Positions 20,275-42,200 of a stretch of 64,000 nucleotides of DNA are shown one piece after another. Below the pieces are notes generated by a model. It searched no databases. It saw nothing but the letters and a program-made list of their open reading frames with translations, and was not told the origin of the DNA. The stretch spans positions 1 to 64,000 of the forward strand of contig JAENYP010000015.1 in assembly GCA_016841725.1 (NCBI GenBank), given 5' to 3'. Origin of the DNA: Thermincola carboxydiphila (lineage in GTDB: Bacteria; Bacillota; Thermincolia; Thermincolales; UBA2595). The first letter of the stretch is position 1; each line of letters opens with the position of its first letter. The position numbers were made by a program, and so were the translations under genes.

Positions 20275-20490
20275 GCATAAAACCCCTGTGAAACAACCAT
20301 AATCCTTTCTCTCGAAGGACTGTATGGTCACTTCCAGGCTGGTATCCTGGCTCCCGGATAAACATGCCGCTTACGCCTTCCCCTTCAAACGAGTGGCATC
20401 ATGTAAGGGCACTCCCCGGTTACAGTGGCGGAGACCGCTCAGGCTTAACCTGATTCCCATTTTTTAAAAAACCCAGAAGTTACAAATATT
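20275..20490 (-). ncRNA. cobalamin (B12) riboswitch
   Basis: On the minus strand, in the leader of cobU, the B12-box AGCCAGGATACCAGCCTGG is exact at 20334-20352. The upstream core contains CCGCCACTGTAACCGGGGAG, the conserved GCCACTG element, with the flanking helices expected of the class. It ends about 95 bp before cobU and so can control the whole late cobalamin operon by terminator or ribosome-binding-site occlusion. An expression platform helix is not obvious to me. The 3' boundary is approximate. Confidence 0.95.
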
Positions 20491-20504
20491 TTTTTGTGAT
20501 TTCA

Positions 20505-20533: not shown

Positions 20534-20636
20534 CAGATATTAAACATAAAATCCTATTCAAGCATGAAATACTACTATCAGTTGATATTTTAAACAAATT
20601 CAATTACCATTTGGTGTACTATTGGAGGTAAAAATC

Positions 20637-21104
20637 TTGCTTTCATGGAAAAAAGGCGCCCTAATCATTTCAGTGACAATTGTTTTGCTTTATGCCTCGT
20701 TCATGGCAGGCTATTACGCTACATCTTTTCCTTCCTTCTGCGCTGTCTGCCATATTGTAAAACCATATGTGGTGTCATGGCGGCAGTCTTCTCACAAGGA
20801 CATTAATTGCCTTTACTGTCACGAACCAAGGGGGTTCCTGGGTAAGGTCCATTCAAAATCCCGGGGCCTTAACTACCTCTATCAAGAATTAACCGGTCAG
20901 CACACAATTATTATAGAGGGACAGATTTTTGAACAAAACTGTGTTGCCTGCCACCTGGGGGATTATTATGATTACCCTGATACTGTAAGGCTTGAGTCCA
21001 AACACTACCAATGGCTCAAGAGTGACCGTAAATGTCTGGAATGCCATATAACAGCAGGCCACGGGATTAATTTATTTACAGCAGAAAAGTTTAACCAGGA
21101 TTAA
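20637..21104 (+). CDS. NapC/NirT (NrfH-like) membrane-anchored tetrahaem cytochrome c
   Basis: About 155 residues. One N-terminal helix (about 7-26) anchors the protein, and four CxxCH haem-binding motifs follow: CAVCH, CLYCH, CVACH and CLECH. This is the pattern of the NapC/NirT/NrfH family, which takes electrons from menaquinol and passes them to extracytoplasmic reductases. It is shorter than NapC and close to NrfH in size, but no NrfA-type partner adjoins it. The preferred start is TTG at 20637, 8 bp after GGAGG; an upstream TTG at 20622 overlaps that ribosome binding site. A weak TTGATA/TACCAT promoter lies at 20582-20610. It is divergent from the cob operon. Confidence 0.88.
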   Translation: MLSWKKGALIISVTIVLLYASFMAGYYATSFPSFCAVCHIVKPYVVSWRQSSHKDINCLYCHEPRGFLGKVHSKSRGLNYLYQELTGQHTIIIEGQIFEQNCVACHLGDYYDYPDTVRLESKHYQWLKSDRKCLECHITAGHGINLFTAEKFNQD

Positions 21105-21521
21105 TCATTTCAGTGACAAATACCTCCTGACCCTGTCCATCAGGTCATCTGTCAGGTGGGGCAGGGGCTCAGTTTTAAAACCGGCTATTTCTATATGATC
21201 CCTGATTACCGGCAGCAGTATCTTGGGGGCGCTGCTGGAAGCTACTGCTGCTGCAACTTCGGGAGTAACCTCACCTAAAAACGAATTGGCAATAATGATA
21301 CCAATGGGCCCCACAATCAGGTCAACACGCCCGGAATTATATATGATGGCATTTTCACCCGAAGCGCCTTCATTGGCCCCTGCTTTGAGCATGGCCGCAG
21401 TTGCCAGGGCATTGGTCCCAACAGCCAGAATTTCAATTTCTTCCGGAAACTCCTTCCTGAACCGTTCAATTATATATTTACCGATTCCGCCACCCTGACC
21501 GTCAATCACAGCAATTTTCAT
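21105..21521 (-). CDS. DUF3842 family protein
   Basis: A 138-residue protein with an N-terminal Rossmann-like beginning MKIAVIDGQGGGIGKYIIER, then a glycine- and alanine-rich core (LVGPIGIIIANSFLGEVTPE) as in DUF3842. The family is typical of Clostridia and has no established function; a nucleotide-binding role is inferred from the GxGGGIG loop. The start ATG 21521 has GAGGAGA in front; a frame extended by five residues lacks such support. It abuts the convergent cytochrome gene with no spacer. Confidence 0.85.
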   Translation of the reverse strand: MKIAVIDGQGGGIGKYIIERFRKEFPEEIEILAVGTNALATAAMLKAGANEGASGENAIIYNSGRVDLIVGPIGIIIANSFLGEVTPEVAAAVASSSAPKILLPVIRDHIEIAGFKTEPLPHLTDDLMDRVRRYLSLK

Positions 21522-21594
21522 AAAGTATCTCCTCAAAACTGTTCTTTGATTTAGATATCTTTTGTATTCAAAGCTTATACCTTATATTTTTTGT

Positions 21595-21781
21595 TTATTC
21601 CTGCACCATTGGCTCCGGAAATGACCGGGGAATATGGTGAGGTGTTGTACAAGATTTTCCTTGCACTGCCGCCGCTATAAGTCTTGCTGCAAATCACCGG
21701 CAACAAGGCAGGGAGTCCCCGCATGTCCGAAGATGGCGAAAGCCGCCGGTCATTTCCGGGAGTCAGCCTGAGCAGGAATAA
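21595..21781. other. 187-bp structured non-coding element with terminal inverted repeats
   Basis: Bounded by TTATTCCTGC and its exact complement GCAGGAATAA. The arms continue inward (about 34-36 bp each) and include a perfect 14-bp pair, CCGGAAATGACCGG with CCGGTCATTTCCGG. The interior has several small hairpins: a stem GTACAAG/CTTGCAC, a stem CTTGCTGC/GCAACAAG with one mismatch, and on the + strand a GGC-GAAA-GCC tetraloop hairpin at 21735-21744. It begins at the nucleotide after the hypE stop codon. No coding frame is evident. It may be a MITE or a structured RNA; I do not recognise it as a known riboswitch class. Confidence 0.8.
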
Positions 21782-22792
21782 CTAACATATCCTGGGAAGC
21801 TGCTCTCCAACCAGCATATCTACTATTCTTTTGCCACCAATTCCGGTTGCTAATACTACCTTTCCCTGGTGGTCAGCGACAACCTCTCCAATAATCACGC
21901 TGTCAATACCATACCTTTCTTTTCTCATGGCGCTAACCACTGAGTCGGCACATTCCCTGGGCACTATAGCCAGTACCTTGCCCTCATTGGCAACATATAA
22001 TGGGTCAAAGCCCAGAATCTCACAGGCTGCCATAACCTCATCCCTGACCGGTAACGATTTTTCCTGGAGCACAATTCCCATATTACTCTGAAGGGCAATC
22101 TCATTTAAGGTTGTGGCAACCCCTCCCCGGGTTGGATCCCTGAGGACATGGATGTCTTTGGATACTTCCAGCATTGACCTGACAAGGCTGTTTAAAGGTG
22201 CACTGTCTGTTGTAACCTGATTCCTGAAAGACAAACCCTGGCGTTCTGCCATCACTGCTATCCCATGGTCACCGATAAACCCGTTAATAATCACTTTGTC
22301 ACCGGGTTTGGCCCGGTTACCTGATATTTGGACACCTTCAGGCACTATGCCTATTCCTGAGGTGTTAATAAATATCTGGTCCAAAGAGCCTTTTTCAACA
22401 ACCTTGGTATCCCCGCAAACAATCTTGACCCCGGCCTCGTCTGCCGTCTTTTTCATGGAAACTGCAATGGCATTAAGCTTTGCCATGGCAAAACCCTCTT
22501 CTATAATAAAACCTGTGCTCAGCCACAGCGGTTCTGCGCCCCCCATAGCCAGGTCATTTACTGTCCCGCAGACTGCCATCTTACCAATATCTCCTCCGGG
22601 GAAAAAAGGCGGACTGACAACAAAGGAGTCTGTAGTAAAGGCCAGTCTAACCCCCCCTGCCTGGACCTCCGCCCTGTCATCAAGCCTGTTCAGTTCAGGG
22701 TTGTCAAACACCGGCAAAAAAAGTTCCGTGACCAGTTCGTGAGATAGTTTTCCTCCGCTGCCATGGGCCAGTAGTATTTTGTCATGCCTCAT
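21782..22792 (-). CDS. hypE: hydrogenase maturation protein HypE
   Basis: A 336-residue protein that dehydrates the carbamoyl group on its C-terminal cysteine to make the cyanide ligand of [NiFe]-hydrogenase. The N terminus LLAHGSGGKLSHELV is typical, and the chain ends PRIC with the required terminal Cys. An ATP-binding PurM-like core follows. The start ATG at 22792 overlaps the hypD stop by 11 bp; a longer frame to 22903 lies entirely inside hypD and adds an unrelated 37 residues. Confidence 0.96.
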   Translation of the reverse strand: MRHDKILLAHGSGGKLSHELVTELFLPVFDNPELNRLDDRAEVQAGGVRLAFTTDSFVVSPPFFPGGDIGKMAVCGTVNDLAMGGAEPLWLSTGFIIEEGFAMAKLNAIAVSMKKTADEAGVKIVCGDTKVVEKGSLDQIFINTSGIGIVPEGVQISGNRAKPGDKVIINGFIGDHGIAVMAERQGLSFRNQVTTDSAPLNSLVRSMLEVSKDIHVLRDPTRGGVATTLNEIALQSNMGIVLQEKSLPVRDEVMAACEILGFDPLYVANEGKVLAIVPRECADSVVSAMRKERYGIDSVIIGEVVADHQGKVVLATGIGGKRIVDMLVGEQLPRIC

Positions 22793-23885
22793 CGCCGGGT
22801 GCTCCTTTCCCGTATTTATAATAAGCGGCACACGTGCCCTCAACTGAAACCATGCACGGGCCCACCGGGTTTTCAGGAATACATGTCCTGCCAAAATGAC
22901 CACATTCGGGAGGAGTTATAACCCCCCTGAGCACCTCACCACACCTGCACCCCGGCAGGTCACTGTCCTCATCAATACGGATGCCATACTTCTTTACTGC
23001 ATCAAACCGGCGGTATTCCGGTCTAAACGCAAGCCCCGTACCGGGAATAGTGCCCATCCCCCGCCAGCTAGCGTCACCTGGCTGAAAAACCTTAAAGAGG
23101 ATATTCATTGCATATGGATTTCCTTCAGGAGGAACCCCTCTGTTATACTGAATTTCTACCTTGGCTATCCCCTCTTCAATCTGTCTGACCAGCATATAAA
23201 TACCCTGGAGGATGTCCACGGGTTCGAACCCGATAACCACTGCCGGTATGGAAAACTCCTCTGCAATAAACGCATAGGGTTTGGTTCCGATCAGTGAACT
23301 CACGTGACCGGGAAGAATAAAGCCATTAATTCCTATTTCATTGTTCTCCAGCAAGGCCCTGATGGCCTGTGGAATAAGCTTTTGGGCTCCAACTACCGAG
23401 AAATTACCGATACCTTCCCTTTTAGCCCTGAGAATGGCTGCGGCCACAGTAGGTGAGGTTGTCTCAAACCCGATGCCGAAAAATACCGTTTCTTTATCAG
23501 GGTTGTCCCTGGCCAGGTCAACGGCATCCATGGTGGAATATACGATCCTTATATCTGCCCCTGCTGCTTTTTCGGCAGCCAGACTGGACGATGACCCCGG
23601 AACCTTCATCATGTCACCAAAGGTGGTCAGAATGACTCCAGGTTGACGGCAAATTTCCAAAGCTTCATCAATGTGCCTGTTGGGGGTGACACAGACAGGG
23701 CACCCCGGCCCTGATATCAGTGATATGTGTTGGGGCAGAATATCCCTGATGCCGTGCCTGAAAATAGCAACAGTATGGGTACCGCAAACCTCCATAAGCC
23801 TGGCCGGTTTTCGGGAAACCCCATTGATTTTATTGATGATCACACGGGCCATACCGGTATCCCGGTACTCCTTCTGAAACTTCAT
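22782..23885 (-). CDS. hypD: hydrogenase maturation protein HypD
   Basis: A 367-residue Fe-S scaffold protein on which, with HypC, the Fe(CN)2CO group is built. Conserved cysteine motifs are present: MEVCGTHTVAIF, SGPGCPVCVTP, and the C-terminal CRCGEVLRG and PPECGHFGRTC set for the [4Fe-4S] cluster. FGIGFETTSPT is another HypD hallmark. It overlaps hypC by 4 bp and hypE by 11 bp. Confidence 0.96.
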   Translation of the reverse strand: MKFQKEYRDTGMARVIINKINGVSRKPARLMEVCGTHTVAIFRHGIRDILPQHISLISGPGCPVCVTPNRHIDEALEICRQPGVILTTFGDMMKVPGSSSSLAAEKAAGADIRIVYSTMDAVDLARDNPDKETVFFGIGFETTSPTVAAAILRAKREGIGNFSVVGAQKLIPQAIRALLENNEIGINGFILPGHVSSLIGTKPYAFIAEEFSIPAVVIGFEPVDILQGIYMLVRQIEEGIAKVEIQYNRGVPPEGNPYAMNILFKVFQPGDASWRGMGTIPGTGLAFRPEYRRFDAVKKYGIRIDEDSDLPGCRCGEVLRGVITPPECGHFGRTCIPENPVGPCMVSVEGTCAAYYKYGKGAPGDEA

Positions 23886-42089: not shown

Positions 42090-42200
42090 GGGGGAGATGT
42101 GTTCTTCCGGCGGGCTACGTCTCAACCGGTCCATAACCCGCTAAAAGCGGGTTATGGACCGGTTGACGACAGACACCGCCTTTCAGAACACATCTCCCCC
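42090..42200 (+). repeat. palindromic repeat element, copy C
   Basis: A 111-bp element. The outer arms GGGGGAGATGTGTTCT and AGAACACATCTCCCCC are perfect complements. The conserved internal strands are GGGCTACGTCTC and GACGACAGACACCG. The apical stem AACCGGTCCATAACCCGCT is a perfect 19-bp hairpin with loop AAA, and its sequence differs from that of copies A and B while the flanking frame is shared. Confidence 0.93.

Follow-up and report, generated by a model that had tools for sequence, protein, structure and literature searches.

Bacterial repeat families such as bcr1 and other stem-loop repeats are dispersed and intergenic, with conserved secondary structure, and MITEs and insertion sequences of the IS1182/IS4 type have short terminal inverted repeats, DDE transposases, target duplications, and short non-autonomous copies. 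Among RNAs, the family to be considered is TwoAYGGAY, which is Rfam RF01731 in clan CL00106. The available sections of two reports treat it as a candidate RNA and mention no mobile element there, one listing it as a probable RNA that occurs in the human gut, in gamma-Proteobacteria, and in Clostridiales (PMC2864571) and the other as a predicted, unvalidated binder of the regulator CsrA (PMC4333381). A short structured element beside hypE in Thermincola carboxydiphila belongs to a family that has features in common with each of these. The family shares the listed properties of MITEs and insertion sequences, its target duplications being at intact copies, and differs from MITEs in having an interior made up of a conserved and covarying RNA module, not of neutral filler. 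Compared with bcr1-type repeats as generally described, its copies are similarly dispersed, intergenic, and conserved in secondary structure; the differences from that description are that a parent with a transposase exists and that two cores can replace each other. Titles in the literature on CsrA, MITEs, IS1182, and Thermincola repeats name no such element, which, being titles, are weak evidence of absence. We propose with reasonable confidence, based on sequence comparison, that the element derives from a transposon, being a decayed, non-autonomous (MITE-like) copy with a swappable RNA module.

The element lies in a 64,000-nt stretch of DNA that was analyzed as a whole (the window), and its features are collected in Table 1. 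An initial annotation had described 187 structured nucleotides directly at the hypE stop codon, containing small hairpins and a perfect 14-bp inverted pair. All of these features were recovered, along with a readable outer 10-bp pair: the element abuts hypE, its small internal hairpins are predicted by folding, and the 187 nt out-fold shuffled sequences on both strands (z of −4.97 on the plus strand and −4.96 on the minus strand). Seed pairs of 14 bp spaced 20 to 200 apart occur five times in the window, representing three separate loci, compared to an average of 0 in letter shuffles. A hidden gene was ruled out, as no open reading frame of at least 60 amino acids overlaps the element. A small multihaem cytochrome-like open reading frame with CxxCH motifs, recognized by eye, is nearby on the plus strand (20622-21104). 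The annotation's statement that the element fits no riboswitch class also held, the only Rfam match in the window being a cobalamin riboswitch elsewhere (RF00174, 93.6 bits, 20320-20491, minus strand), which is adjoined by cobalamin-type genes (open reading frames as read).

Table 1. Features at the hypE-DUF3842 intergenic site, in window coordinates
Feature	Position	Strand	Remarks
Internally deleted type-A rod	21595..21781	+ (RNA-sense strand of the family, opposite both neighboring genes)	Profile and model R1 matches
Terminal arm, left half of perfect 14-bp inverted pair	21615..21628		
Right half of 14-bp inverted pair	21746..21759		Deletion junction at its initial CCGG (21746-21749); aligned to intact copy L006
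Outer stem TTATTCCTGC, copy-specific	21595..21604		10-bp pair, read from sequence
Outer stem GCAGGAATAA, partner of 21595-21604	21772..21781		Read from sequence
Type-A core, surviving 5' half; 3' half missing	21675..21745	+	
Claimed GNRA hairpin GGCGAAAGCC	21735..21744	+	Intact copies pair these bases elsewhere
Region corresponding to the unit's tail, decayed beyond recognition	21523..21594	-	Absent at the G001 empty site
hypE, upstream gene	21782..22903	-	AIRS / AIRS_C domains
DUF3842 gene, downstream	21105..21536	-	Likely ATG start at 21521

Residues 1 to 155 of the window copy match many other places in the same genome (G000) at 86 to 95% identity, in most cases forming the left side of a longer palindrome. 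Intact relatives are quasi-palindromic rods scattered over dozens of intergenic sites in this genome and in those of two genus-mates, and copies mostly occupy the gap from a stop codon to the ribosome-binding site that follows. Searching the G000 loci with a profile of one intact copy gave 24 long copies, 20 near 305 bp and 4 near 255 bp in length, plus shorter ones. A profile match covers 21611-21758 of the window copy, and model R1 scores that copy at 33.4 bits (E of 3.2e-5). The interval 21595-21781 is not a natural unit, as intact relatives consist of a rod of about 305 bp, often with a tail of about 60 bp, and the block absent from the orthologous site in genus-mate G001 corresponds to about 21523-21779. 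The window copy tracks the intact copy as far as the CCGG at the junction and then continues with the right terminus, about 150 nt having been lost between two CCGG repeats. Its identity as a repeat relic is well supported, and the hairpin from which it remains, probably derived from a transposon, once bore a type-A RNA module at its apex.

This deletion accounts for a hairpin to which the initial annotation had drawn attention. The GNRA-type sequence GGC-GAAA-GCC exists on the plus strand, but both the minimum-energy and centroid structures of that strand lack the hairpin, and intact copies use these bases in pairs that span the apex, GATGGC with GCCATC and GCCGCC with GGCGGC. The apparent hairpin arises because the partner half was deleted, and it is not a feature of the family. 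The tail profile also found no match in the window, and having lost half its core and any recognizable tail, the window copy is most likely inert, without the function of the module.

A cis-acting regulator, such as a riboswitch or attenuator controlling the hyp operon or the DUF3842 gene, would fit the strong fold and the placement exactly between both genes. The relatives adjoin many different genes, however; of the genus-mates, one is without the element here and a second has another core in its place; the RNA-sense strand runs antisense to hypE as well as to the DUF3842 gene; and the core is truncated in the window copy. Cis-regulation is largely refuted by these observations and would be very surprising.

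Many rods are followed, in gene sense, by the tail (AAGTCCAAGGC..GCCTTGAACATAAAGGAAAT..ATTTCCGAGAGACTT), which precedes the next ribosome-binding site. The full unit, a rod of about 305 or 255 bp plus the tail of about 60 bp, has 12-bp ends, GTAGGCTCTCGG... and ...CCGAGAGACTTA. In the RNA-sense direction, the tail contains a terminator-like hairpin and a run of T (for example, L214:3482-3504), and its comparison with known RNAs gave no credible match. Locus L186 is a tail without a rod, so the tail may have a separate history and is not in every case demonstrably part of the insertion.

Two loci at nonorthologous sites, L214 in G000 and L215 in G001, contain rod, transposase, and tail in one block of about 2.06 to 2.1 kb, with 78% identity between them. 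Both begin with GTAGGCTCTCGG and finish with CCGAGAGACTTA, forming terminal inverted repeats. At the same end positions, each block is flanked by a direct repeat that is perfect over 6 bp (AAACTA and TAAAAA). The transposase has 464 amino acids in L214 and is a 507-amino-acid open frame without stops in G001. It passes the Pfam DDE_Tnp_1 cut-off (32.1 bits against 23) and differs from IS1182 in scoring 41.6 bits with the IS1182 model NF033551, for which the equivalog cut-off is 270. The gene points to the rod and shares the orientation of its RNA-sense strand, with the rod about 220 nt past the transposase stop. A decayed transposase fragment, 42% identical, is found beside a short rod in the same order (G000:C37), and G007 encodes a 43%-identical transposase without a rod, with similar ends as read in the sequence. 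The related autonomous element was found once in G000 and once in G001, and no such transposase was found in G002, G004, or G009, where rods are numerous.

The initial annotation had raised a MITE as one outcome, recognizable by many near-identical copies with target duplications. Dozens of dispersed copies do exist, and target duplications are present at the two transposase-bearing copies; the copies are about 83% alike and not near-identical. A 6-bp duplication was not clear at any of 11 other units, including old short copies, and decay of the window copy has left no tail end at which the terminal inverted repeat could be seen. The unit is probably a transposon derivative, and since modules in G004 and G009 are found in other outer arms, this one transposon cannot explain every copy.

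Palindromic, extragenic, high-copy repeats could also be of the REP/BIME type, spread by a Y1 (RAYT) transposase. G001 and G004 contain many copies and no Y1_Tnp match, none of 16 Y1 loci examined has a rod or tail nearby, and the unit is much longer, with 12-bp ends and 6-bp duplications. RAYT mobilization was rejected on the lack of association between Y1 transposases and rods, leaving this origin highly improbable.

With a transposon-derived hairpin as the preferred reading, the full unit would be rod plus tail, with the DDE transposase between them in intact units. The rod could then form a 3'-untranslated structure past the transposase stop, an arrangement that is seen in the DNA and for which transcription would be expected, and short copies would have been moved by transposase supplied in trans. 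The RNA-sense strand runs against the genes in 24 G000 tandem contexts and with them in 6 (P = 0.0014), based on crude longest-ORF gene calls; the same kind of calls revealed no bias in G004 (3 to 3) or G009 (2 to 3). A tail that is terminator-like in the RNA-sense direction would cut an operon if turned round, which would explain why the RNA-sense strand is usually antisense to the operon.

The apex of the rod would hold a conserved RNA module of one of two types. For type A, the core found at the window site, alignment A1 was made from 36 of 68 extracted cores, and alignment A2 contains 31 of these 36, two having been dropped for foreign flanks and three to thin near relatives. The 36 cores come from six genomes and have 36 consensus pairs, 17 of which show two-sided changes that keep the pair, and many unpaired bases are invariant. 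Model R1 matched six of 10 genomes in the class (22 matches in G000, 21 in G002, 9 in G001, 20 in G004, 1 in G006, and 30 in G009) and the same 6 of 398 in a phylum sample, all in the class of the window. A pattern scan revealed relatives in Thermincola ferriacetica BM5_bin.4 and Firmicutes HGW-Firmicutes-8, as well as in one more contig, filed under Desulfoscipio geothermicus and possibly mis-binned. One match of the core pattern, in a virus contig (L132), falls within phage-like coding sequence and was rejected as chance. In an Rfam search of the window and the type-A loci, no family matched type A, including RF01731, and assignment to a riboswitch or other Rfam class was rejected for this reason. 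Type A is a candidate new RNA module whose predicted folds lack paired GGA loops.

The shorter rods, of about 255 bp, have their outer arms in common with the longer ones of about 305 bp. Their core is of another kind, type B, in which 14 of 45 pairs show two-sided compensation (11 sequences). Two type-B loci in this genome match RF01731 on the RNA-sense strand with scores below the threshold of 43 (L031, 40.6 bits; L037, 39.6 bits), and L180 and L068 gave no match up to an E value of 1. Model R2, built from type B, matched 9 of 10 genomes in the class and 41 of 398 in the phylum sample, and of 20 loci around R2 matches, 3 reach the threshold of RF01731, over the same spans and on the same strand. 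Skipping-rope RNA (RF02924, 60.1 bits, L249:966-1050) lies near a type-B match in G005. Type-B cores align over the full RF01731 model, and at least two GGA hairpin loops are predicted in 29 of 29 type-B sequences on the RNA strand, compared to 0 of 29 on the antisense strand and 0 of 31 for type A. The type-B set consists of 11 A3 members and 18 of 20 R2 loci (L244 and L251 were left out), the 18 having been chosen by R2 score, which favors them somewhat.

Type B is thus related to TwoAYGGAY RNA, sharing its full model, strand, and two GGA-bearing loops, and the loop counts argue that it is probably a member. The type-A copy in the window is not a member; the type-A core lacks the GGA loop pair, has no match in Rfam, and is found in one class. 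The expectation in the initial annotation that a family with compensatory changes would support a new RNA is partly borne out, with such changes seen in both types, no Rfam match for type A, and a relationship of type B to RF01731. Of the R2-positive genomes, 38 of 41 contain csrA, compared to 247 of 357 R2-negative genomes (P = 0.0008), or 36 of 37 and 229 of 318, respectively, when high-quality genomes are compared (P = 0.0002), both comparisons being confounded by ancestry. The modeled loops are of the kind that CsrA binds, and binding of CsrA by type B is a testable prediction.

The two cores replace each other at the same sites. At the window site in G002 (L180), the first 64 nt of the arm are identical (GGCTCCGG...GCCGCCG) and are followed by a type-B core. 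Core A in G000 is opposite core B in G002 at three orthologous sites (L001, which is the window site, L017, and L002), or 3 of the 8 G000/G002 ortholog pairs in which both cores could be named; the other five pairs have the same core (L003/L093, L004/L095, L006/L098, L012/L103, and L014/L177). Because modules differ at one site between genus-mates, they appear to have been exchanged in place. In G009, divergent A and B cores lie side by side within 710 bp at 7 places, mostly 150 to 260 bp apart (L076 and others), a count covering all type-A rows and type B minus 11 of 114 rows (five antisense duplicates and six weak matches). The outer arms of these neighboring loci are unlike those of the window's genus.

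As a tentative extension, transposon ends in this class may carry interchangeable apex RNA cassettes. TwoAYGGAY could be a mobile, multicopy CsrA-binding sponge past a transposase gene, and type A an unlisted RNA that replaces TwoAYGGAY at the same site, stands divergently beside it in one genome, and perhaps acts as a second regulator of another factor. Here a TwoAYGGAY relative forms the tip of what is probably a transposon end; it occurs in many copies and is exchangeable with a second RNA, and if type-B loops bind CsrA, mobile DNA would titrate a global regulator, with each new copy shifting the dose.

Copies at orthologous sites are shared among genus-mates with 85 to 97% identity, and paralogs average 83%. 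Five ortholog pairs with full-length rods in both members, sequences that were also included in the consensus alignment, differ at 43 of 938 paired columns and 76 of 640 unpaired columns (Fisher P = 1e-7). Paired columns change less than unpaired ones, indicating that pairing was kept after insertion, which suggests either benefit to the host or mechanical correction of palindromes; sequence alone cannot separate the two. One-sided changes include 53 G-U and 28 A-C, a modest RNA strand preference that is not seen in the ortholog changes alone. In-place exchange of A and B offers a natural test of why hairpin pairing persists, through selection or palindrome repair.

Conserved pairing after insertion is also what would be expected if the rods were host-maintained RNA genes or RNA sponges multiplying by recombination, with the transposase of L214 and L215 an incidental passenger. 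The resemblance of type B to a predicted CsrA-binding RNA and its co-occurrence with csrA point the same way, as do the recurrence of modules in different outer arms and the finding that, outside the class, 9 of 10 tested neighboring open reading frames are ordinary genes and 0 are transposases. Against this stand the two unrelated sites at which rod, transposase, and tail form a single block bounded by matching ends and 6-bp repeats, the many copies that have no core and yet keep their site, and the lack of GGA loops in type A. We consider host-maintained RNA genes unlikely, and a transposon-derived unit remains the preferred reading.

Under that reading, rods would later shrink by internal hairpin deletion, as at the window site. 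Copies that are short in one genome and full length at the same site in another (L030/L097/L104, L032/L101, L034/L106, L036/L091, and L025/L089) show that rods shrink in place. G001 is cleanly without an insertion at the window site and at L002, L008, L013, and L020; it lacks rod and tail together at several sites, the window site reading ...GTTAGTTGTGAGGGGG... instead of the whole block. Some "empty" sites are deletions and not preinsertion states, as L173 and L195 keep remnants and L186 keeps the tail. Other structured elements are found close to rods. A c-di-GMP-I-GGC riboswitch (67.8 bits) lies near one rod at L011:1887-1980, and palindromic repeats of a second family, whose ends resemble GGGGTAGATGTGTTCC...GGAACACATCTACCCC, occur in the window at about 634-750 and about 42090-42200, with the same sequence also flanking rods L015, L018, L021, L023, and L026.
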